From contig JAMXDE010000011.1 of assembly GCA_026770025.1 (NCBI GenBank), positions 558,001 to 622,000 of the forward strand: a stretch of DNA of 64,000 bases. Direction: 5' to 3'. The DNA is from Craspedostauros australis. Lineage: Eukaryota > Bacillariophyta > Bacillariophyceae > Mastogloiales > Achnanthaceae. This document shows, piece by piece, positions 3,718 through 64,000 of the stretch (positions are counted from its first letter, which is position 1; each line of letters starts with the position of its first letter). The position numbers and the translations under genes are program-made. The notes below the pieces were generated by a model. That model worked only from the letters and a program-made list of their open reading frames with translations, ran no database searches and was not told the DNA's origin.

Positions 3718-4911
3718 TCAGTATTGGAAGTTCCGAGTTTGCGAAATGTTGAAGAGAACGTCCCTACAGGATTGGAGCAGCCACTCCTTCGTCGCTTCGT
3801 CTACCTGATTCGCGATAGTGCTGTAGGGTTTCTGATCCATAGCTGCCCAGCCGTTTCTCTTGTACCTGCTACGCACGGCATTTCGCACGATGAATTCGTT
3901 GTTGGTTGCTCTCGTTCCCCACACGCGGACTTGGCGACCGCCTGTATCGTTGTACAGACCTTCCTCGGGATAGCCGAATTTCTCGTCCTTCATGAAATCG
4001 ATGGCGGCCGTCTTCAGTGCGCCGGGTCCGGTGACTACGGGAATGTTCTGCTTCAGCACGTTCTTGACGTCGAACAGACGAAGGTAGACCCGATGGACGG
4101 CGTAGAACATGAGGGGATGCTTGGGCGATGCCGCGATGAAGTACTGCGCGGGGAAGCCACCGCCTTCGACGACTATGTAGGCATCATCGTCCGGCTGGAT
4201 TGCGGCGTCGGTGGTGAACCGAGGTCCAGGGGCGCTGTCCATGTCGGAGTAGATACCACCGTACTCATACAGGACAAGATATCGCCAGAGATCGGTCTTG
4301 GCGGCGCCACTGATGAGGCATTCCTGTATCAGTTGCAGATGCGGAAACTCGGGCCAAAACTTCGTGAGCAACCTATCCACGGCTGGATCGTCATGGAAGA
4401 GGAAGGAGTGGCCTTCCAGCTCCCAATTCTTCAGGCTGGACCGGAATGCCCCTGTCAAGCAGGGTCTCTTGCCGCTAATGTGCACGATCCTTGGGATCTT
4501 GCGCGGCGGCAGCGTTTGGTTGGCGAACGTGCTGTTGATGAAGAAGGTGCCATTGGGGCACATATGCGGGTCAAACTTGCTCGTCTGGACGAGATCCTCC
4601 AGCGGGATGTAATCAATCTCGCGGCTGGTGTGCTTGGCCCTCTCCTTGGACATGCCTGGTGCTGCGGTCGCCCGTCGGTCGGGACCTTCCTCCCAGCTCT
4701 CATCACCTTCCAATGTGGCGTTGCCGAAAAGTGTGGATCGATCAGGATTGTACGCGACCATCACCGACATATCTTGCAGATTTCTGGTACAGAACACGCA
4801 GAGCATCACGATGGCCACCACGCTGCGCAGAGAGAAGGTCAGCGGCTGTCCCTCGCGACCCTTCTGCGTACGAGTATCTGCCGTGTTCTTGTTCTTGCGT
4901 TTGGCAGCCAT
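3718..4911 (-). CDS. GT32-type glycosyltransferase (DXD motif), type II membrane protein
   Basis: Predicted Golgi or ER glycosyltransferase that moves a sugar from a nucleotide donor onto a glycan or lipid acceptor. A basic, disordered N-terminus (MAAKRKN...) is followed by one hydrophobic segment at about residues 26-42, giving type II topology. The catalytic domain has IPRIVHISGK at about 139-148 and the family signature YEYGGIYSDMD with the metal and nucleotide-sugar binding DXD at residues 223-225, as in the Gly_transf_sug / OCH1-like and alpha-1,4-galactosyltransferase families. Several NxT/NxS sequons lie in the lumenal part. I chose the ATG at 4911 because it has a Kozak-like context (accATGGct); the frame is open to an earlier ATG at 5007, which would add 32 residues. 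Single exon, 397 residues. The acceptor cannot be told. A long antisense frame (3724-4917) is a shadow of codon bias. Confidence 0.85.
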   Translation of the reverse strand: MAAKRKNKNTADTRTQKGREGQPLTFSLRSVVAIVMLCVFCTRNLQDMSVMVAYNPDRSTLFGNATLEGDESWEEGPDRRATAAPGMSKERAKHTSREIDYIPLEDLVQTSKFDPHMCPNGTFFINSTFANQTLPPRKIPRIVHISGKRPCLTGAFRSSLKNWELEGHSFLFHDDPAVDRLLTKFWPEFPHLQLIQECLISGAAKTDLWRYLVLYEYGGIYSDMDSAPGPRFTTDAAIQPDDDAYIVVEGGGFPAQYFIAASPKHPLMFYAVHRVYLRLFDVKNVLKQNIPVVTGPGALKTAAIDFMKDEKFGYPEEGLYNDTGGRQVRVWGTRATNNEFIVRNAVRSRYKRNGWAAMDQKPYSTIANQVDEATKEWLLQSCRDVLFNISQTRNFQY

Positions 4912-5121
4912 GGTTGAACCTTGGGAAGCGCGGTAAATACGTTTTCGGCGTCGTTTTCCGATGGGACTCCATTGGTAGTCCAAGTAGTCATCGTGTAACA
5001 TATTCACAATCTAGAAGGTACTCCCATAGACAGTTCATCGACGTAGTGTGAACATGGTATTACGGTTGGTCACTAGTTATGTTACGTTGGTTGTTCGTGC
5101 TGCATGGGACTCGCTCCAGTC

Positions 5122-7056
5122 TTACTCAGTGTCTGTGGATTCGCCCTCCTTGGTCTCGGATGGCGGGTCGACCTCCTCGGTCTTGGGGCTTACCGGCGGC
5201 CAGTAGTACTCCTCCTCCTCCTCGTGGTCTGAGTCGCAGTCAATCTTAATCAACTCAGCCACACGAATCTTGCGAATGACCGTGGCGCAACGCTGAGTGC
5301 TGGCGCTGGAGACAACAGCGGAAGGCACCACGACGGGGTCAGGAATATCAGCGCGACGAGCACGTCTGCGAGCAGCAGCGCGGCGGGAAGCACGAGTAGA
5401 CGTGTCCATCGAACCCACAGTCACGCGAGATGGTTGACGAGCGGACTGCACAGTGAAAAGAAAGAACCCAAGGATGTGTGAGTGAACAAGTGGGAGTTGT
5501 GAAGAACAGAAGACGAAACCGGTATCGAAAACACTTACCCTTGCAGAATGTCCTGATCCGGTAGCTCGGCGACCACGAGCAACTGTCATGCGAACAGGAG
5601 CAGGACGGGAAAATGTTAATTCGTCATCGGACGAACTGTAGTCATCCTCTCTCTGGTGAGCACGGGGGTTCAGCTTAAGTTTGCTACGCCTCTCTGTTCG
5701 CCTGTAACGCGCCAAGTTGGTGGCGCAATGGGTGACCGGGCTCGCGCTGTAGACCGGCACCATGCGCACAATCAGCAGGGGCGCATCAGTGTGCACATCG
5801 CTCTCCCGATCATTGATGCCAACAGAAGGATTGATAAAATCAATCCCATGCATGGCTTGATCAATAGTCATTTCAAACCGGTCACTGACTTGGATCGGCA
5901 GAAATTCCTTGTGCACGCGGACAGGTCGTGGGTGCCCGCGACACATGTTGCGAACAGCAAGCGCGTAGGATTCGCTGCGTTCGCGTTGCCCACGGAAAGA
6001 ACGGATCTTGAGGTGCGGAGGAACCGTTTCGTTCAGGCGCTCAAGCAGCTCCTTGTCGGTTGCGGCGGATGACGCGAGCTCTTGGTTCTGATCGAGCTTG
6101 ACCTCCAACACGCGCCCATGCTCCTTGATCAGCACGTTGACATCGCCGTAGCAAGTCCCGCCAGGCAGCTCGAACGTGATTTCGAACACCTCCCCACGAC
6201 CAGCTGGGGAGTACGCGTGGCGCACAGCGGGCAAGAAAATTTCGGTGTTCTTGTTCATCCACGTTTCAATCGCACGCGCACGACTGGGGCCCTCTTGCAA
6301 GGGTGTCCCAGTAACAGTGTTCGTCACCAGCATGCCACGACTTGCAGCAAAGCCAGGAGGAGCAACAGGAGGAGAAGCCACATGCGGTGGAGGGGCATGA
6401 ACAGACGAGGGCTCAGTACGAGCAGCAGTCATCGTGTCCATGGTGTGGTAGAGAGGTCTTGGTGTTGGTGATGGATGGGTGGGGATGGGCGATGCCATGT
6501 GCGCCGTGTTTGGTTCGGCGGAGGGACGGGCTGTTGTTGGCATCGCGGTTGGAGCGGTGGGTGCCGGGCTGTAGGCCATGCGCGAAAAAGCGTCCATGGT
6601 TTCCTTCGCGTCTTCGGGTTGCTGCGTTGATACTTTTTTGATCGCTTTGTCAAATTGATCTTTGTACGCAGTTGCGTTCGCGACAAGATCGGAAACGTTG
6701 GGAGAGAATTTCGTATCCATGCGCACTGAGAAGGGTGAGAAATGATGTCGTGAATAAACGCGTAACAAATGACAATTTCAGGCATGCACTTCAAGTCACG
6801 TACCGGCCTCAGTTGCCTCCTTCTCGCGCCTTCTCTTCACTGAATTTCGCAAATTCCGAAGGTTCCGAGGGAAGTTGCGTCTGGACAGGAATGCCAAATC
6901 GGGATTCTCTTTCCACACTTCCCTCGCGGTCTTCTTCATCGGAATTTCGCCGCTCTCGATCTTCGCCCTCAATTCGCGGATCTGGGAGTACAGCTGCTCG
7001 TTCCACTCCGCTCCATCACAACTGTCGTGCTTCGTGGGAGCAGCTTTTCGTGGCAT
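5122..7056 (-). CDS. Gene A: unrecognised two-domain protein, paralog of the gene at 61073-63326
   Basis: I rebuilt three exons: 7056-6804, 6725-5539 and 5445-5122. The introns are 78 bp (donor GTACGT, phase 1) and 93 bp (donor GTAAGT, phase 0), and the product is about 587 residues. The N-terminal domain (about 15-80) has W18, TAREVW at 43-48 and F62-RNLRNLR at 64-70, and looks like a small helical, possibly DNA-binding module. A Pro/Thr/Ala-rich linker follows. A second domain (about 255-407) contains FELPGGTC at 269-276 and APLLIVRMV near 399. The C-terminus carries an Arg-rich run (RRAAARRRARR) and then an acidic tail, suggesting a nuclear protein. The gene at 61-63 kb shares both domains and the intron layout. 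A DDE transposase starts 1.86 kb upstream in the opposite direction. I do not recognise the family; a transposon-associated role is inferred only from this context. Confidence 0.7.
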
Positions 7057-7770
7057 GTTGTATCGGCACTTACTTTTTAATCGTGAACGAGTGATCGATG
7101 GAGTATGAACGTCATTTGTGAGAGGAAGACTTCGCTCCATTCCGCGGCAACCTGAGGAGTTCGTGTGCGACGTGTGATGAACCGGTGCCTTGCGCTGTGG
7201 AGCACGCACGCTGGGAGGATCCGTGGAGCAATCGATCACCGCGTTGCAGCGTGATAATGCGAAACACAAAAACACGGGATACGTAGACGTCTACGCTGCC
7301 CTACTATAGTTCAACGCATCCGTTTTGCCTGGAATATCCAATATTACATCTTTTTTGATATATTTATTGTCTAATTAATGTATACGTTGAATGAACATAG
7401 ATGTTTCCTAGAGCATAAAGAACTATACGGCTACGACTATAGTGCATATGTAGTGTTGGTCTAGATTCAACGCTCAACGTATCTATTCGATTTGCTCCTG
7501 TTAGTCGACGATGGTGGAGAAACATGGGTCTTCTGTCGTGTGCGACACTCTCTCGGAGTATACACATGTAAGTACACTGGCGTGTTGGCACGTCGCCATG
7601 TGTTTCGTGAGCAACGACATGGGGAGTTCGTTTGTGGGGAGCCAACGGGACATTGACGTGAGGCTCGCGTGTGTTTCACCATGTGCAACACGTCGGGACA
7701 GACACCAACATGACATCGACCTGCGACAAGCACGACATGGACATGCGACAGACACGACAGAGGACCGGAT

Positions 7771-7822
7771 CGACGAGCAAGGGGACGTGCAAGGGACGAG
7801 CAAGGGGACGTGCAAGGGACGA
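7771..7822. repeat. 22-24 bp tandem repeat, copy 1
   Basis: About two units of the sequence cgacgagcaaggggacgtgc plus aaggga stand in tandem. The same unit recurs at 8130-8202 about 360 bases downstream. The two clusters bracket unrelated sequence, so this is a short minisatellite or the subterminal repeats of a mobile element. Confidence 0.75.
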
Positions 7823-8129
7823 CCAAATTTCTCGCAATTACCGCGGTTTTGTCGGTGCGACATGTTGCGAAATGGGCCATACTACCATGTCTAGTCTAGT
7901 TGTATATTCAAGGCGATAGAGTGCACTTTTCAAAAATTAGAATGCATGAATGTAAGCGTACGATCTATACCATGGTAGCACACGTATTCGATCTTGATTG
8001 CAACATCATTCTGAAACACAGTTGATAACAGAGATTTGCATCGCGGCGACTCCAGACTGATCACCTACGATACTGCGACATCTCTCTATAAGTAAAGTGC
8101 GGTAAGGGAGGTGTCGATTTTTCAGGAAT

Positions 8130-8240
8130 CGACGAGCAAGGGGACGTGCAAGGGACGAGCAAGGGGACGTGCAAGGGACGAGCAAGGAGACGAGCAAGGG
8201 ACGCGACTTCAGCACGACGTGAGCACGACGTGAGCACGAC
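8130..8240. repeat. 22-24 bp tandem repeat, copy 2, followed by an 11-bp repeat
   Basis: Two and a half units of the repeat seen at 7771-7822 are followed by a shorter variant (gacgagcaagg) and then three copies of agcacgacgtg-like 11-mers at about 8210-8240. The orientation is the same as in copy 1. Confidence 0.75.
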
Positions 8241-8916
8241 TAGTACAAGACCGATTCACGACAAGGGTAAGACTCCACGACAGTGCGCGGTCAGATGTTG
8301 TCTATCCATGGCTGTATGTCCATGATTGTTCGTGTTGAGCGCAAGGTGAACTACGGGCTCCCCAGATAGAGCACAACAGCACGCGTGCAAGAATGATACA
8401 GCACGCTGGAGGGCATTCAGCTCGATACTCGTTTGCTTCCCCTCCAGAGCGTGCTTGCTTGCAGTGCCGGGCGAACGGAGCAGCGCGCACGTTCGTCCGA
8501 GAGAGCCTCCCACGAAGTCGTGGATGTGCCCCTGATCATTACACTACATCCGGCAACGAAGGAATTCATTGGATGTTTCGTCCGTTGAATCCTGCCTTCC
8601 TTGGCACCTTGGTCACAACGAAGCACAAGTGGGCGCAGCATTGGAGGACAACCGTACACTTTGTTCGACTTCTCTGCGATTAATCTGGAAGAACGCCCTC
8701 GCTTGATTGGCTTCCCCACAGCAAAGCGCGGAACAACTACTGTAGCTGGAGAGCATGCGAAGCCCCACAAGAAAGCTCGTTTCGTCATTGGCAAGTTGCA
8801 GTTGATTTGCGCACAATTTGTACTAGCTCAACGGTTACTTGTTGGCATTGTTGTTTTTCGCCTCATTTTGATATTTCTAGTTGCACAAGAGCTCATAATT
8901 CGCAAGGAACACGAGA

Positions 8917-9939
8917 ATGCTTCTACCAAGTGGAACATTTGCCACCCTGGGGTTCGGGCTGATTGGGTCACGCCCAAGAGGCTTGGACACGAACAACCTT
9001 TCCAGGGAGGCACTGCGACAGTTCGCATCCGTTTTCGGAACGCATCCTGACATCGTGCACATCTTGTGGAACGAGCTCTGTCATGCGCGAGCTCTGCCAC
9101 TCACGGCGAAACCGAAACATCTCCTGTGGACGTGCGCGTTTCTTCGTCTGTACGTGTCTGAGACTGCCCTTGCCACCATGTGCAAGTGTTCTGCCAAAAC
9201 ACTTCGGAAATGGATGTGGCTAATGATGGAAGCCGTTGAAACCGTTAAAGATCGCATTGTAAGTACTAATAAATTCACACACCCGAACTGCGACACAAAA
9301 TTCTGTTCACTCCATTCACTCACACATGGTTCTGATTTTTCCTGGTACCGCTCCCATTGACAGATTGTCTGGAACCGTCGTTTCGTTGGCGCAAGTCACG
9401 ATGCAAAAGCTCTTGTCACTGTGGACGGGACTGACATGCGAATCACCGAACCCAAACCGTTTAGCCAGAAGTGGTACTCGTTCAAATTTCGCGCTGCTGG
9501 TTTGCGTTACGAGTTGGCTGTTGCGATTTCCACTGGCGAGATCGTTTGGGCGAATGGTCCTTTCCCGTGTGGCCTGTTGAACGATCTTTCGATCTTCCGT
9601 CTGGGTCTGAAACCGAAATTGGCGCAACACGAAGTCGTCGTCGCAGACGCCGGATACCGTGGGGACCCTTGTGTCTTTCCCCCAACATTTCGTGCAGATG
9701 GGATCATGCGGTGCCGCCACGAAACGGTCAACAGGCGAATCAAGCACTGGCAATGCATGCACCTGAAGTGGCGGCACCACGCGGACAAGCATCGCCTTGC
9801 ATTCAACGCGGTTGCCATCGTGACGCAAATTGAATTGAGCAACGGCTTCCCCTCGTTTGACGTGGTTGTCGCGATGCAAGAAGCACGCGAACGTGCCATC
9901 GCCCGTGCAGATGCACAACACACAAACACTACTAATTAG
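8917..9939 (+). CDS. Harbinger/PIF-type DDE transposase
   Basis: Two exons, 8917-9258 and 9364-9939, are joined across a 105-bp intron (GTAAGT...CAG, phase 0), giving about 305 residues. The catalytic triad of the DDE_Tnp_4 fold is visible: D135 in VTVDGTD, D209 in VVADAGYRGD and E234 in CRHETVNRRIK. The spacing is 74 and 24 residues. The upstream helical region (about 60-105) precedes the RNase-H fold as usual. The first ATG after an in-frame TAA is at 8917; an additional 5' exon is possible because the N-terminal DNA-binding part is short. The triad is intact and there is no stop, so the gene could be active. Harbinger elements typically encode a second, DNA-binding protein, and the divergent gene A is a candidate. 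I could not find terminal inverted repeats by eye. Confidence 0.85.
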
Positions 9940-11622
9940 GCCGTCCCACGTAGCAGTAACAAATAGCCAGAATTTAACAAGCATAAAATGTTAATCGTTG
10001 ATGTCCTCCCTTGTCTGTTGTAGTGAGTTCGTGTTTGGTGTCCTGGTTTGAAAAAGGCAAGCACAGCATCGCGCTGACTGGTTCATCGTGTAAGTGCTCT
10101 GCTTTACTGTGGGGAACACTATTTGCCAACGATGCATCTTGGACCCACTGGAAAGCCGTGGTGGAGAATGGGCAAGGAGCTTCGTCCACGTGGGGTGACA
10201 TCCTTCCTGGATCACAAGAGGATGGACTAGGCAACCAGACACTGTTGCTTGCGCAAAACAATCCAAGTGTGTCCTAATGAAACGAACGAAAACACCAGAG
10301 AAACATCTGGACTGTGCAATCACACGCACGTTCAGCGGAGGGGTGGGAGGATGTTCACAGCAACAGCCGACGATGAGAGCGACACGAGCAGGGGAGCGAC
10401 ACAAGCAGGGTTCATCACGCAATGACGCGTGGCTATGAGGACAGGAAAGGTAGGACATGATGCTGCCTACCCCCCTGCGAACGAACATGCTCACTTTCGT
10501 CACAGGTGTGGAGAGTGACGAGTGAAGAATCGAAGTACACCGGGCAAGAGTATGATGAGACAATGCATGTTTGTTGGTGTGCTGCACAGCAAGGAATTGT
10601 GGCGCGAAAAGGAACCACCCCACACGTTCGAGAGTTGTTCCGGCCACGAAGAAACGCACCAGCACGAACAACGAATGCGAAGCAAGGACCCTCTTGAAAA
10701 GCAAGGGGCGATTGAGCCGAAGGGCTGTCACGGTCGAAAGGAGGCAATGTGACGTAGCGGGTTTGGGAATGGCGCTGTCTTGGAGCAGACACGAAAGGGT
10801 GGAAGGAGAGCAAAGCGGACGTCATTGGCACGTTCACACAGTGTTGGACATCGCCAGGCACTCACGTTAATAAGCGCAACGTCACGCCGACACGGGAAAG
10901 GCGTGCTCTAGTAGTCGCATGAGTCGATGATCCCAACGAACAAAGCACGGCAGAACGCGCTTCAAGCGTGAATAAAGTACAAATCGACACATGTGGTGTC
11001 TTTACCGCGCTTCCCTTGTGATCTCGAACTTTCGTCGTCGGCGTTGTTGTGACTGCCAAGTCGAACCGGATGTGGAATACGATGATGACGACCTCGTTGC
11101 CTCTGTTTCTGTTTTTTGCAGGCAGATGTGTGCTGCATCATCGTTGGGAGAACCGTTTTTTGTTTGTTTGTTTTCCATGATTGTGGACAACCAATCGATT
11201 CTGATCGTTGTGGTTTGAGGCGAGGCGCGCTTCCACTCGGCGACATCCTACTTATGATCCAACACCGTTTCGTCATGTCCGAACCATGGCAATGACGCAC
11301 GGCATTGGAGGCCACGAGCTGAAGATCCCGGCGCTATTCCGTTCGCTTTGTGGACTCTCGTCTGGACGGCGTCAGTGCTCGTTGACACACACAACAAACC
11401 AAGAATTTCAATCCTCACTTTTTGTTGTGACCACTTGGTTTTGTTCACCGCAACATCAAGCTCTCTCGAAGATCCGCGCGGCCGTTGGCATCGGAAGGAA
11501 GCGCGGACGTGCATCCGGGGACAGTGGCAGGAACATTGGCACTATACTCTCATACAGGTCAAGATCAATCATCCCGAGAACGCAGAGACCGCAAGTCCGG
11601 AAGTCGACGTCAAGGACCCAGC
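9940..11622. other. stretch without a supported gene
   Basis: Long open frames exist on both strands (for example 9991-10731 minus and 10571-10870 plus), but they overlap one another, are rich in Cys, His and Arg, and match no domain I know. The right-hand end of the transposon is expected here. The last few hundred bases are the 5' flank of the TcdA-like gene. Confidence 0.4.
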
Positions 11623-58683: not shown

Positions 58684-61072
58684 AGATAGGAGGACTATTG
58701 GGATGATTGCGAGTGCGAGTGCGAGTGCTGCACTGCCACAACATGGTCGGAAAGAGAGATGATCTGCTGTTGGGACACACACGCACATCAAGCCATGTGT
58801 TTGCGCATCATGTCAGATGTTTCGGACACCCGGTCCAAACCTGCAACTGACGAATACAAACCAAATGGCAGATGAGGACACATGGTCGATGCACGGACAT
58901 GGCGATGATCCATGGTGTGCTTGGACCACTCAGTCCACGGATTCATCTGAACAACCACCCAACTACGGATATCAACATCCTGGATAGGGTGCTCGAGATA
59001 GCAGTATCACTTCACGCAGAACAAGAGAGTAATGAAGCAAAATCATATCCAATTGCATTAACTGAGACGTATCACAAGCTGTGCATGCCATACATGGTGT
59101 TGTTTTGCATGCAGGCGATCGATTGGCCATGTTGCACTCGCATGAGTATGCCTGATCAATGACATCTTGTCGCGATGTTGATGCACCACAATCCTGACCT
59201 GATGACACGCCAACAGAGACTTCTTGCTACCGGCATCAACTGGGCAAGTTGTCGCCCTTGGAATTCCTGGAACGGGAAGGTGGAGGCGGAACTTGGTCCT
59301 TCTTCGATTCCTCTGCGACGCGTCGGATGGGAGTGGATGTAAATTGGGACACGTTCACGATTGTTCGTCCCGAGCTTGAGAGGTATTCTACCTGCGACTT
59401 TGATGATCCTCCCACACGTCCGTGCGAGCTATTCGTCCCGCCGCTGCCGTCTCTCTGTTTGAAACGATTTCATTCGGATGCCTCAGGAACAACACGATCT
59501 AACGATCTTGTTGAGGCATGCAAGTGTGCGAAGGCTGTTGGCCCTCTTCCCATCACTGCCGACGCCTCGATTCGAAAGACATGAAAGATGAACCGCTTGG
59601 CATGAAGTTTTGGCTCCTCTACATACTCCACATTCAAAACGTGGCAATACCAATTCAAACCAAGGAGGACGACTGCCTGTACGAATACACATGATGATGC
59701 CGTTCTTCCTCCTCCTCCTCTTTCACTCATCGTACGACTATGTTAAGATCCCTGGAACGATCTCCCAACGTCTTGCCCCTTGTACCCAAGAGCAAACACT
59801 CGCAGATTAGAACGTCCTGGATCACAAGGTGGCGCAAGTTTGGAAGTTGAACCGTCGAGGCATGATGCTATGCGTTCGTATGTACGATCCATGCATCCTG
59901 AAGCCTCACGTCCACGAATTCCTGGCAGTTCCCCGTTACCCAAAGATTAGAGCCTCGTATCTTGGTCTTGGTTAGCGCGTTGCAGTTGGATTGTTCCGAC
60001 GAAAGTCGCCACCTGCCTGTTTGAAACGTGTCAGAATGTGGCAGCGAGACACGAGCGAACATTGTGAGGTGACAACAAGCGAGAGCAAAAAAGCAGCTTC
60101 GTGACGGCGAAGTCGAGCGTGGACTGATGTTGTGGGGCGGATGGCGATCGCTTGCCTTGCCGCCTGTCGATCTTCTGCATGTCGCAGTGCGTATCACTGA
60201 GACATTTGAGAATTTATGCCATGACATCTTGGATCAACATGATAGCGCATCCCATTGTTCCTGGATGCTCCGTGACCTCTTGCGCAAGCGAAGTTTTTCT
60301 GCATTGGGCGGTGTTGTAGTACCGGAACGATGCGTCAGCAGAAACATCATGCGGGTTCGTTTTGGAACTTTGGCTGTTCTCCAATCGTTGTTTCCCTCCA
60401 TCCACCAGTGAATCGGCCAGTGAGTCAACCAGTTAACAACCAAACGAGCCGGCAGACACGCACATCACACACGCACAATGACAGATGAACACGCTGAGGG
60501 GGACCTCACATTGATGAACCGCATCGTCATCGTTATCTCTCTGTTTCTGATGGCTATGTGCTGACAGTACCATCGCAGCGTGTTGTGCGTACGTCCCAAA
60601 CACGAGGGTGGTTCCAATACAGAACAGAAGTCCAGTGTTCGTATTGTTGTTGGTTGCTGGATCAGTGGTACAACTGGATGCAGATAAGAGAGGGAGAGGA
60701 TTAAAAACACCAAGGGGTTGCCAAACCGACCTCCTCATAAAAATAGGATCATCGCAATCGAACACTGACAGAGCAGATCAGTACTGGCCCACCAAGCGTC
60801 ATCACTGGGAGGCGCGGTAATGCCATGTGTTGAAATATAATTGCATCAACATCAAAATATCGCGAAAAGGCGAGCAAACTGCCATGCCCGATATTTCTAT
60901 TCATTTCGTGACCTTTAAGTGGATGGAACAACAGAATTTTGCTCCATTGTCATACAGTACTGATGTTTGCTGCTTATTTGTATGCGGCGAATTACTGGTT
61001 TACTATTTGCTACTGCGTACAAGAGTGTGTGTGTGGCTTGTTTACTGTTATATGTATTTCGGTACGATGTCA
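58684..61072. other. gene-poor stretch, no supported gene
   Basis: 2.4 kb with several frames of 60-140 codons on both strands and no recognised domain. A plus frame at 59249-59584 has coding-like composition but no partner exons or known motifs. The frame 60127-60411 (HVAVRITETFENLCHDILDQ in part) may be a decayed element. A plus-strand frame over 60827-61255 is hydrophobic only because it is antisense to the acidic tail of gene B. Confidence 0.4.
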
Positions 61073-63326
61073 TCAATCCTCTTCCTCGCTGGTGTCCTCG
61101 TCGCTGCTGTCCTCTTCCTCGCTGCTGTCCTCGTCGCTGCTGTCCTCATCATTGCTGCCCTCATCATTGCTGTCCTCGTAGCTGCTGTCCTCGTCATTGC
61201 TGTCCTCCTTCATTGGCTCATTCAGGCCGGTCCCCAACAAGTTGTCTCCAAGTAGGTCGAGGCCGTCGAATTCATCAAATGCGTACTCTGGGAGAGTTGT
61301 ATCAATACCGCCACCTGGAACCCACTGGGGGTCCTGGCCTTCTTCTGCAGCAGCAGCATCTTCTTGTTGTTTGGCTTGTGCAGCAGCAGCAGCATCTTCT
61401 TCTTCTTGTTTGGCTTGTGCAGCAGCAGCATCTTCTTCTTCTTGTTGGGCTTGTGCAGCAGCAGCAGCTTCTTCTTCTTCTTGTTGGGCTCGAGCAGCAG
61501 CTTCTTCTTGTGCTGCAGCATCAGCCTCCCTCTTCGCTCGTGCCGCCACAGCCGCGGTCTTCACCGCAAACGCTCGGGCTCTCGCCACTGCTGATGGTTT
61601 GACGCGCGGGGATTTCCCCGCTGGCACCACGCGCTCAATCAGGACCTCATCGTGGCCCGGGGGGGCTCTCTTGGGGGTGCGGGGGTAGCGGGCCGCTGCC
61701 ATCGCGACGCCATGGGCGATCGCGGCATCAACACCACGCCTGATTGGTGCGGGTGTTGGTTCGGTGTGGTGGATGGCATTTTTGGTTTTTGTGGGTGATT
61801 TGTGTTTCTTGTCCTTCCGCTTTTTCTTGCGTGCTTTGCTTTTGGTCTTGGAGTGTTTGCTGGTGGATGCACCAAAGCGGCTGCTGGTGGCACTCAGGCT
61901 TTTACCGGACAGGCTCACCACGTCCGGACCCTCGGGAAAAGCCTTCCCAAACACACCACGCTGTTGGAAGAAGAAGTTTGCAAAGTGGAAGAAAATTGCG
62001 TGTGTTAGTCCGTGTGCTTTTGTCACCCATCGAGTCGTGGGTGATCGTGAAAGTCATTGGGTCATTCTGCTTTTACTTACCTCTATCGCGGCTGGCTTCT
62101 CGTATGTCTTCGCTTGAAGAAATGTCCCAGTACCGATGCTGGAGTCATCGCAACGGGAGGGCAGACATGTATGACGCGTGTTGATGTCAACACGGAATTG
62201 GGGCTTAGTCGCCCCAACCTGCGACAAGCCAGCGAACACAGGGCGATTATGTGGAGAACGAGCTTTGGGAACGATAGAGACGATGGGATGAGAACTGTTT
62301 TGCTCAACAACACGGACGATAAGCACAGGCGCCCGCACCAAAGCTTCTTTGTCGTTCGTTGGAACTTCAAGTTCAAGGTAGTTGATCCCGTTGAGAACGC
62401 GATCGTCAGCGCGTTCCCATCGATTTGTCACAGCGAACGGCAAATCGACAGTTTGTGTGCGCACTGGTGCTCCATTGCGCTGTTTCATACGCGACAATGA
62501 TATCTTGCTTGCATCTGCACGTGCCTTCTCGTCGTTGAAGGGAGACACCCAAAGACCGTTCGCAACCGTAAACTCATCGCGCAAATGGTCGTGAACACGT
62601 TCGATGTTTGCAACAGCAGCATTTTGTGCAACTTCAAGCACAACAGACATGCCCCCAGGCGCAACATGCACACGAAGGTCTTTGTGGCAAGTGCCACCAG
62701 TGAGTTCGAAGGTGAGGTCGATGATACGCTCGCCATTCGCGTTGCGGTAGAATGTGCGCGTGACAGGCAGAGCGTGGTTGTTGTTTGCGTCGAGCCACTT
62801 CATGACATCGGCGTCAGTGGTGGCGACTGGTGGTGAAGGAGGGTGTTTCATGGTGTTTGTTTGTTGCGATGGTGGTGGTGGCTGCGTTGTTGCGTTGTTG
62901 TTGTTGTTGTCTAGGTTCGTCAGGTTGATGTCGTTCCGGACCATTCGAGAAGCTTCCCGAATCGATTTCGCGTGCGCAGCAAGCTCCGACACGGTTGGAG
63001 ATTCGTTGGCGTCTCTCTGGACTGAAAACCCCAATCACGAGTAAAAAAATTTTAGTCACGTTGTATGAGTCACGCACACAGTAGTCGAGCAAATCATGAT
63101 TGCACACGTCATGAATCCAAAGGTACTTACTTTGCTCCTGTCTGACCTTCGCACGCAGATTCGACAGATTCCGGGCAAATTCGCTTTGGATGAATTGGCG
63201 TGCGGTTTCGGAGTTGTTCCACACCTCTTTTGCGGTCCACTCGGGTCGGATGGCTCCGGTCTGGATGTGCGTTTTAAGTAGTTGCACCTGTGAGCAACTG
63301 TATACCCAACGTTTCGGCTTGGCCAT
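61073..63326 (-). CDS. Gene B: paralog of gene A, with Ala/Glu/Gln repeat and acidic tail
   Basis: Three exons, 63326-63131, 63021-62081 and 61960-61073. The introns are 109 bp (GTAAGT, phase 1) and 120 bp (GTAAGT, phase 0), and the product is about 674 residues. The N-terminal domain has W7, TAKEVW at 31-36 and F50-RNLSNLR at 52-58, matching gene A. Intron 1 interrupts both genes at the same place and phase, just after this domain. The second domain (about 155-305) has FELTGGTC at 170-177 and APVLIVRVVE at about 296-305. Exon 3 is different from gene A: a Lys-rich segment (SKARKKKRKDKKHK), an imperfect AAAAQAKQEEED repeat likely to be helical, and a tail of Ser/Asp/Glu units (SSDEDSSEEED). 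Nuclear localisation is likely. Function unknown. Confidence 0.7.
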
Positions 63327-64000
63327 GTTTCTGTTTTGTGTCTCCTTTCCACCAAACACTCTTGTGGTGCATCCTGATGTGCACATGGTCTCATTTGCGG
63401 TACAAACAAACAAGTTGTGTATTGGCCTGCCTGCCTGCCTGATAGTACTGGTGGTATTAGTCATGGTATTCCCGCTTCGTTCTGTACTTCCAGCGGAACT
63501 AATAAAGTACAACCTCTATGTAACCTATTACATGGCATTTGTTATGCGGTATCCCACATGGACGATGGCGGGTCGCACAACACTATCGACGCAAGTGCCA
63601 GCAAGAGCTCCTCCCTGTACAAGAGTAAAAAGAAATCCCACTTCATTGTTGAAGGGATTGTTCCACTTTCCCAAAGAAATAAATTGTAATTCCACCCGGA
63701 ATTATAATTTAAATTATTTTGGAATTCCGAGCGTATTCTTCATGTGACCACGACGGCAGTGTGAGATATTTCCCTTTTTGGGTGGAATTGCTGGGGAGAG
63801 AGGGCCGGAATTATAATTTAATTTACATTACAATTCCGTTCGACCTCGTAGTATTTCCATGTTGGATGGGAATCTTTCCACATCCCCACGTAGAACTGAT
63901 GTAACTTCCCTACCTGATGAAGGTCACGAACTGCGCTGCATGCCTAAAAAGCTCCACTACGAGAAGGCACCTCCTCCGTTTCTCTTAGCGTTCCCGCGTC
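63327..64000. other. upstream flank of gene B, gene-poor, runs off the window
   Basis: Contains AT-rich imperfect palindromes (annotated separately). No supported frame. The promoter of gene B should be near 63330-63500. A divergent gene beyond the window end cannot be seen. Confidence 0.4.
63687..63836. repeat. pair of AT-rich imperfect inverted repeats built on ggaattataattt
   Basis: At 63687-63715 attgtaattcc faces ggaattataat across a few bases. At about 63809-63836 ggaattataattta faces the reverse complement of tttacattacaattcc. A further lone copy of ggaattc lies between. Such hairpin-forming AT-rich units resemble ends of a MITE. Target-site duplications were not found. Confidence 0.55.

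Follow-up and report, generated by a model that had tools for sequence, protein, structure and literature searches.

When examining a 64,000-nucleotide stretch of the genome of the diatom Craspedostauros australis (hereafter, the window; C9:558001-622000 of an assembly of 74.8 Mb in 90 contigs), we observed that two of its genes, denoted here A and B, lie inside DNA transposons. We consider it rather probable that these genes are the second open reading frames (ORFs) of Harbinger-like transposons and that their product is a partner of the DDE transposase encoded by the same elements. This reading builds on the position of the genes inside the elements, their head-to-head pairing with the transposase gene, the co-divergence of the two genes, purifying selection and the target sites, as well as on the predicted fold of the second domain of the protein.

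Genes A and B inside mobile elements

A preliminary description of this DNA had proposed two-domain genes of three exons each, with shared motifs and a first intron of phase 1 at the same residue, and reading of the exons bears this out: the quoted motifs are present in both genes, and intron 1, of phase 1, interrupts both at one and the same position of the alignment (..REKEATEA^VRMDTKFSPNVSDL in gene A and ..VRQEQ^IQRDANESPTVSEL in gene B). Judged by sequence, both genes are spliced as predicted, with GT..AG borders in all four introns; for intron 2, phase 0 at matching places in the two genes can be added to the earlier account. Nine further copies of gene A, of which eight are 89-99% identical to it and one, L122, is 71% identical, keep GT and AG at both introns without exception (9/9), the intron borders of L122 being displaced by small indels.

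The similarity between genes A and B is beyond chance, as a genome search with gene A exon 2 retrieves gene B with an E-value of 8.2e-20, and gene A exon 1 matches the first exon of a B-family member (L026) with a tblastn E-value of 4.7e-9 within a set of 17 loci. The proposed old divergence under constraint likewise holds, given that the second domains of A and B are only 26% identical and that the ratio of nonsynonymous to synonymous substitution rates (dN/dS), which had been put forward as a check on the paralogs, lies well below 1: in the 11 pairs with dS <1.2, among the 16 pairs computed, the values for the second domain are 0.10-0.26, pointing to purifying selection. What had to be abandoned is the statement that the pair is not a recent repeat because full-length copies that are 96-98% identical exist, so that recent repeats stand alongside the old split. 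Similarly, the new gene family that had been proposed is a real and constrained pair but its members are not ordinary host genes; they belong to two transposon families, in each of which they form the second ORF and each of which has recent, nearly identical copies.

The family A element in the window was compared with eight further copies elsewhere in the genome. The exact span of 4923-11015 recurs in L009, L010, L012 and L016, and that of 4917-11019 in L011, with nucleotide identities to the family A element of 91-98%, and the partial copies L013, L014 and L015 start at 4923/4924 and run to 7621, 10242 and 10626, respectively; the best other matches to gene A exon 2 in the genome are up to 99% identical. 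The inverted repeat GGGAAGCGCGGTAAA is found at both borders of the element, and the genome contains 87 occurrences of the 14-mer GGGARGCGCGGTAA, compared with 0 of a reversed control. In the case of the family B element, homology to another copy (L018) begins at 60807, and GGGAGGCGCGGTAA is present at both ends.

Individual elements show some further peculiarities. Within the family B element, the transposase gene is broken by an insertion of 1.1 kb (64947-66051, that is, C9:622947-624051) whose inverted ends measure 24-27 bp, and gene B stays open. On the host side, the ATG of an ORF at 3718-4911 (minus strand; DXD glycosyltransferase-like, by eye only) is 11 bp from the end of the family A element, and because of this position immediately upstream, the element may supply or replace the promoter of that ORF. 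At C8:1972466-1974231, a 1.77-kb stretch has both B-type ends and C-T/T-G flanks, and is probably a non-autonomous copy because it is too short for both genes.

Transposase pairing, target sites and superfamily

The search with gene A exon 2 gave 73 match rows that, together with 2 rows from a further search, merged into 72 gene loci; 108 transposase loci (C-terminal rows) were kept, a lower bound because only 129 of the 529 candidates were scored. A transposase gene lies head-to-head with the gene locus, within 16 kb, at 62 of these 72 loci, against a chance expectation of approximately 0.01 per locus; conversely, 48 of the 108 transposase loci are the nearest partner of no gene locus. Moreover, accessory and transposase identities are strongly correlated, both over 14 elements (Mantel r 0.95, 0/5000 permutations) and over 7 representatives (r 0.87, 8/5000 permutations). 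The accessory gene is the faster-diverging of the two, with the 26% identity between domain 2 of A and B corresponding to 61% in the transposase exon.

The transposase of family A matches the Pfam DDE_Tnp_4 profile (PF13359) with 27.4 bits, above the cut-off of 24.8, and all 20 aligned sequences agree in the columns of the D, D and E residues. In close pairs, dN/dS of the transposase exon is 0.05-0.14, a range taken from 11 rows, one of which (C12:1250k) carries the non-partner transposase C12:1253620 without affecting the limits. In a comparison of family A with the L122 element (C36:52-58 kb), the transposase exon (window positions 9173-9922) is 90-94% identical and most other parts are 52-78% identical (dS 0.23 versus 1.04), a pattern suggestive of either exchange between element families (a mosaic or gene conversion) or unusual constraint on the transposase exon. 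Among 5.8 billion predicted proteins of public genomes and metagenomes, in a search requiring exact shared 5-mers, there are 26 relatives of the transposase that are 30-55% identical to it, two of them labelled, as 'hypothetical protein'; a search of PDB sequences with the transposase gave nothing significant. A viral or prokaryotic source was considered and rejected: when viral contigs and prokaryote genomes, the latter with one genome for each species, were scanned with the transposase, no relative was confirmed.

By sequence, families A and B look like related cut-and-paste transposons resembling Harbinger (PHIS superfamily), with a DDE_Tnp_4-type transposase, short terminal inverted repeats (TIRs) and a short target-site duplication. 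The targets were compared in 27 elements that carry the exact 14-mer at each end and for which both flanks were read; at least two more end pairs, C6:1905819-1919961 and C58:238836-243463, lie outside this set. All 27 elements are located in C-NN-G (the 18 with A-type ends) or C-N-G (the nine with B-type ends) targets. The A-type flanks (18/18) read C-NN/GGGAAG...CTTCCC/NN-G, with slashes marking the element ends, and NN is repeated, so that the duplication is NN in C-NN-G, or CNNG if the outer G/C is counted as target. The B-type flanks (9/9) read C-N/GGGAGG...CCTCCC/N-G, with N equal on both sides in eight of the nine (five with T, two with A and one with G) and T versus A in the remaining one. 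A CWG duplication is accordingly seen in 7 of 9 B-type elements (the others showing CGG and a CTG/CAG mismatch) and in 0 of 18 A-type elements; a TWA duplication is found in 0 of 27, and an AT dinucleotide in 4 of 18 A-type copies and in none of the B-type.

These targets set the two families apart from the groups to which they are otherwise similar. PIF/Harbinger proper has the same DDE_Tnp_4-type transposase, two ORFs, a short TIR and, in the second ORF, a helical domain that presumably binds DNA, but its TWA duplication was found in none of the 27 elements; here, in addition, the second ORF has no Myb/SANT match and contains an HSP20-like domain. In the part of the relevant source that was available (PMC4482050), the CWG target is given as the signature of NuwaI, a PHIS group with no reported hosts other than animals, the target types named do not include CNNG, and the second ORFs of Harbinger and NuwaI are said to bear a Myb/SANT domain. 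NuwaI, with its CWG duplications and TIRs starting with GGG (PMC4482050), resembles family B in part, as most B-type copies have CWG, and the ends of both families read GGG; it differs in its animal hosts and Myb/SANT second ORF, and the C-NN-G target of family A is one base longer. Pangu, according to the same portion of that source, has one heterokont and two algae among its hosts, a motif-less second ORF and a DDE-only transposase, but its target duplications are ANT (PMC4482050). ISL2EU also has two ORFs and TIRs starting with GG but is described there as confined to animals, with an AT duplication and a YqaJ exonuclease second ORF (PMC4482050); neither of the latter two features fits the present elements, genes A and B giving no match to YqaJ at an E-value of 1 and AT being only one among several dinucleotides in the A-type copies.

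The accessory protein and its possible role

The preliminary description recognised neither domain, and sequence comparison led to the same result, with no significant match in Pfam, NCBIfam or PHROGs; domain 2, by contrast, becomes assignable once folded. In the predicted model, it has the beta-sandwich topology of alpha-crystallin and looks like an HSP20/alpha-crystallin-type sandwich with a helical insertion. The predicted sandwich and an LPG motif in the matching strand region are features in common with small heat-shock proteins and CS-domain co-chaperones, which differ in that the long helical insertion and the lack of a Pfam HSP20 match are peculiar to the present proteins; profile comparison is weakly concordant with this assignment. 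Domain 1 is predicted to form three helices (pLDDT 76, pTM 0.55) and may bind DNA, a property that is proposed by analogy because the domain matches neither a PDB chain nor Pfam Myb/SANT. Homologs of the accessory protein were not detected among the 5.8 billion proteins with gene A exon 2 or a 13-row alignment, a null result that is weak evidence because exact shared 5-mers were required and the gene evolves fast.

A third, more distant transposon group is represented by about 30 transposase matches at 47-49% identity among the matches listed. In the one copy that was read (L057 with L108, C9:757500-767400; transposase at C9:760936, 48% identical and one of the 48 transposase loci that are the nearest partner of no gene locus), the second ORF is a 951-codon open frame with a two-domain layout like that of genes A and B. 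Comparison by hhalign matched its domain 2 with a score of 32.9 (P 0.00028), 60 shuffles giving at most 17.2, and matched the short N-terminal stretch corresponding to domain 1 weakly (score 16.1 versus a shuffle maximum of 13.7). An alpha-crystallin-like second ORF is, on these sequence comparisons, probably common to the third group as well.

If the product of genes A and B is a transposase partner, the N-terminal three-helix domain would bind element ends or subterminal DNA, the basic stretch would carry the complex into the nucleus, where the two element ends would be brought together to be cleaved at C(N)NG targets; the HSP20/alpha-crystallin-like domain would hold the complex together for this by oligomerising and/or binding the transposase. 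All four properties (DNA binding, nuclear import, oligomerisation and transposase contact) are proposed here by analogy with the Harbinger Myb-like protein, which, as far as the available part of the source goes, binds the TIRs and the transposase and enables their joint nuclear import (PMC9179366).

Several observations weigh against this reading. For ten of the 72 gene loci, the 108 transposase loci kept, an incomplete list, include no divergent neighbour. The domain 1 model has no Foldseek match in PDB, and Pfam Myb/SANT does not match this domain. The AlphaFold model of domain 2, built with 16 sequences, is middling (pLDDT 65, pTM 0.55), and Foldseek gave no match with E <0.001, with query-length TM-scores of about 0.3 and unrelated chains from rank 8. 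Pfam HSP20 matches none of 16 family members, and its 10 matches in the genome all lie away from the gene A and B loci. PDB sequences searched with a profile of domain 2 yielded no heat-shock protein and nothing significant, and hhalign aligned domain 2 with HSP20 over just 32 columns, at a stated probability of 11%. Finally, hmmsearch gave no significant link to the third group (best E-value 0.088), and the hhalign probability for that link is 41%.

Some of these results could be taken to mean that domain 2 is an unrelated beta-sandwich, its resemblance to HSP20 being a coincidence of a common fold, as the middling model, the Foldseek E-values above 0.001, the low hhalign probability and the lack of a heat-shock match among PDB sequences would suggest; we regard this as unlikely. 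The alternative of most appeal, which seems to us quite unlikely all the same, is that of an anti-silencing partner, in which the HSP20-like domain would recruit or mimic host chromatin machinery and so keep the element expressed. In Arabidopsis, going by the available parts of the sources, HDP1, HDP2, MBD7, IDM1, IDM2 and IDM3 form one complex, in which the Harbinger-derived HDP1/HDP2 pair works with the alpha-crystallin-domain proteins IDM2/IDM3 (PMC5758694, PMC5462541). Both kinds of domain are seemingly fused here in the transposon's own protein, whereas in the plant they belong to separate host proteins, and the acidic tail of the accessory protein would also fit such a role; however, the sequence of domain 2 is far from Pfam HSP20, and a role as transposase partner by itself accounts for the pairing. 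Along the same lines, one could imagine, at a level of probability that we consider low, a Harbinger-like lineage in silicifying algae in which a protein that fuses a DNA-binding and an alpha-crystallin-like domain would use the latter both to assemble the transposition complex and to oppose silencing by the host. If so, this lineage would be a selfish counterpart of the Arabidopsis complex, and such partnerships could begin inside transposons.

A dedicated chaperone that keeps the transposase soluble or ties mobilisation to stress, with no direct part in end recognition, would agree with the predicted fold, which is of the class that includes small heat-shock and CS co-chaperone domains. The beta6 strand is the dimerisation strand of small heat-shock proteins, and the model places the helical insertion where this strand would be; a chaperone role also leaves the conserved N-terminal domain and the basic stretch without explanation, and we deem it improbable. 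That the genes are a host family, domesticated or captured, merely riding in the elements is very improbable, since, despite the three-exon structure under purifying selection and the 10 unpaired loci, 62 of the 72 loci have a head-to-head transposase gene and the two genes have diverged in parallel; simple duplication of a host gene is rejected because of that same pairing and because the copies read end at common TIRs.

In the sources covered here, the second ORF of Harbinger-like elements encodes a protein of the Myb/SANT type or a YqaJ nuclease, or else has no known motif. An alpha-crystallin-like second ORF, constrained in all 11 usable pairs, would add a new type of partner to those known in transposition and give a testable link to the plant complex that joins Harbinger-derived and alpha-crystallin proteins. 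Titles and abstract openings of the papers listed contained no description of a transposon-encoded HSP20/alpha-crystallin domain, and those on Harbinger-like elements named no HSP20-type domain, the subscription literature and Repbase being outside this scope. The case also matters for genome annotation, as it shows that an ORF of an algal genome may look like a gene, be spliced and be under constraint and yet belong to a transposon.

Features of the window and the wider genome

Table 1. Coordinates of the family A and B elements and their genes, in window positions
Feature	Position	Strand	Remarks
Family A DNA transposon copy, 6,093 bp, two head-to-head genes	4923..11015	.	borders shared with copies elsewhere
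Target-site duplication CTTG, left copy	4920..4923	+	or TT 4921-4922 if first repeat G belongs to element
Left TIR GGGAAGCGCGGTAAATAC	4923..4940	+	18 nt, 94% complementary to 10998-11015
Gene A (588 aa)	7056-6804, 6725-5539, 5445-5122	minus	ATG 7054-7056
Gene A exon 1: start codon, N-terminal three-helix domain (W, TAREVW, NFPRNLRNLR)	6804..7056	minus	helices predicted
Gene A intron 1, phase 1, GT..AG	6726..6803	minus	splice sites kept in 9/9 other copies
Gene A exon 2: proline-rich linker, HSP20-like domain	5539..6725	minus	
Gene A HSP20/alpha-crystallin-like domain, FELPGGTC to APLLIVRMV, with two-helix insertion	5749..6237	minus	fold predicted
Gene A intron 2, phase 0, GT..AG	5446..5538	minus	
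Gene A exon 3: arginine-rich stretch (like a nuclear localisation signal, NLS, by eye), acidic tail, stop codon	5122..5445	minus	direct reading
Short direct repeats (GACGAGCAAGGGGACGTGCAAGG..) between two divergent genes	7746..8208	+	
Transposase A exon 1	8917..9258	+	
Transposase A intron, GT..AG	9259..9363	+	
Transposase A exon 2, D-D-E (VDGTD, ADAGYRGD, RHETVN)	9364..9939	+	Pfam DDE_Tnp_4
Right TIR	10998..11015	minus	
Target-site duplication CTTG, right copy	11015..11018	+	or TT 11016-11017
Family B transposon, part in window	60807..64000	.	ends at C9:625768, 3,768 bp past window
Gene B (675 aa)	63326-63131, 63021-62081, 61960-61073	minus	ATG 63324-63326
Gene B exon 1: N-terminal three-helix domain	63131..63326	minus	helices predicted
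Gene B exon 2: linker, HSP20-like domain	62081..63021	minus	62258-62860 aligned
Gene B exon 3: lysine-rich NLS-like stretch, Ala/Glu repeats, acidic SDED tail	61073..61960	minus	direct reading

Elsewhere in the genome, four closely similar, dispersed HSP20 coding segments are found in long open frames of 241-370 aa (L101, C4:3013682; L102, C4:3056987; L105, C24:364766; L107, C10:550592) and may represent a heat-shock gene that is mobile or was amplified recently.

The genome also holds many matches to the silicon transporter (PF03842) and light-harvesting (PF00504) families, which by themselves point to a diatom or to some other photosynthetic stramenopile that forms silica. Three to five silicon transporter copies are typical of most diatom species, according to the available part of the source (PMC10700740), and PF03842 looks hugely expanded here, with 88 match rows, which may include allelic or duplicated contigs; the best 32 of these score >750 bits and are nearly full length, 4 of the 32 containing stops. 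Examples are located at C11:710408-712021, C2:977655-986283 and C61:24421-26025.
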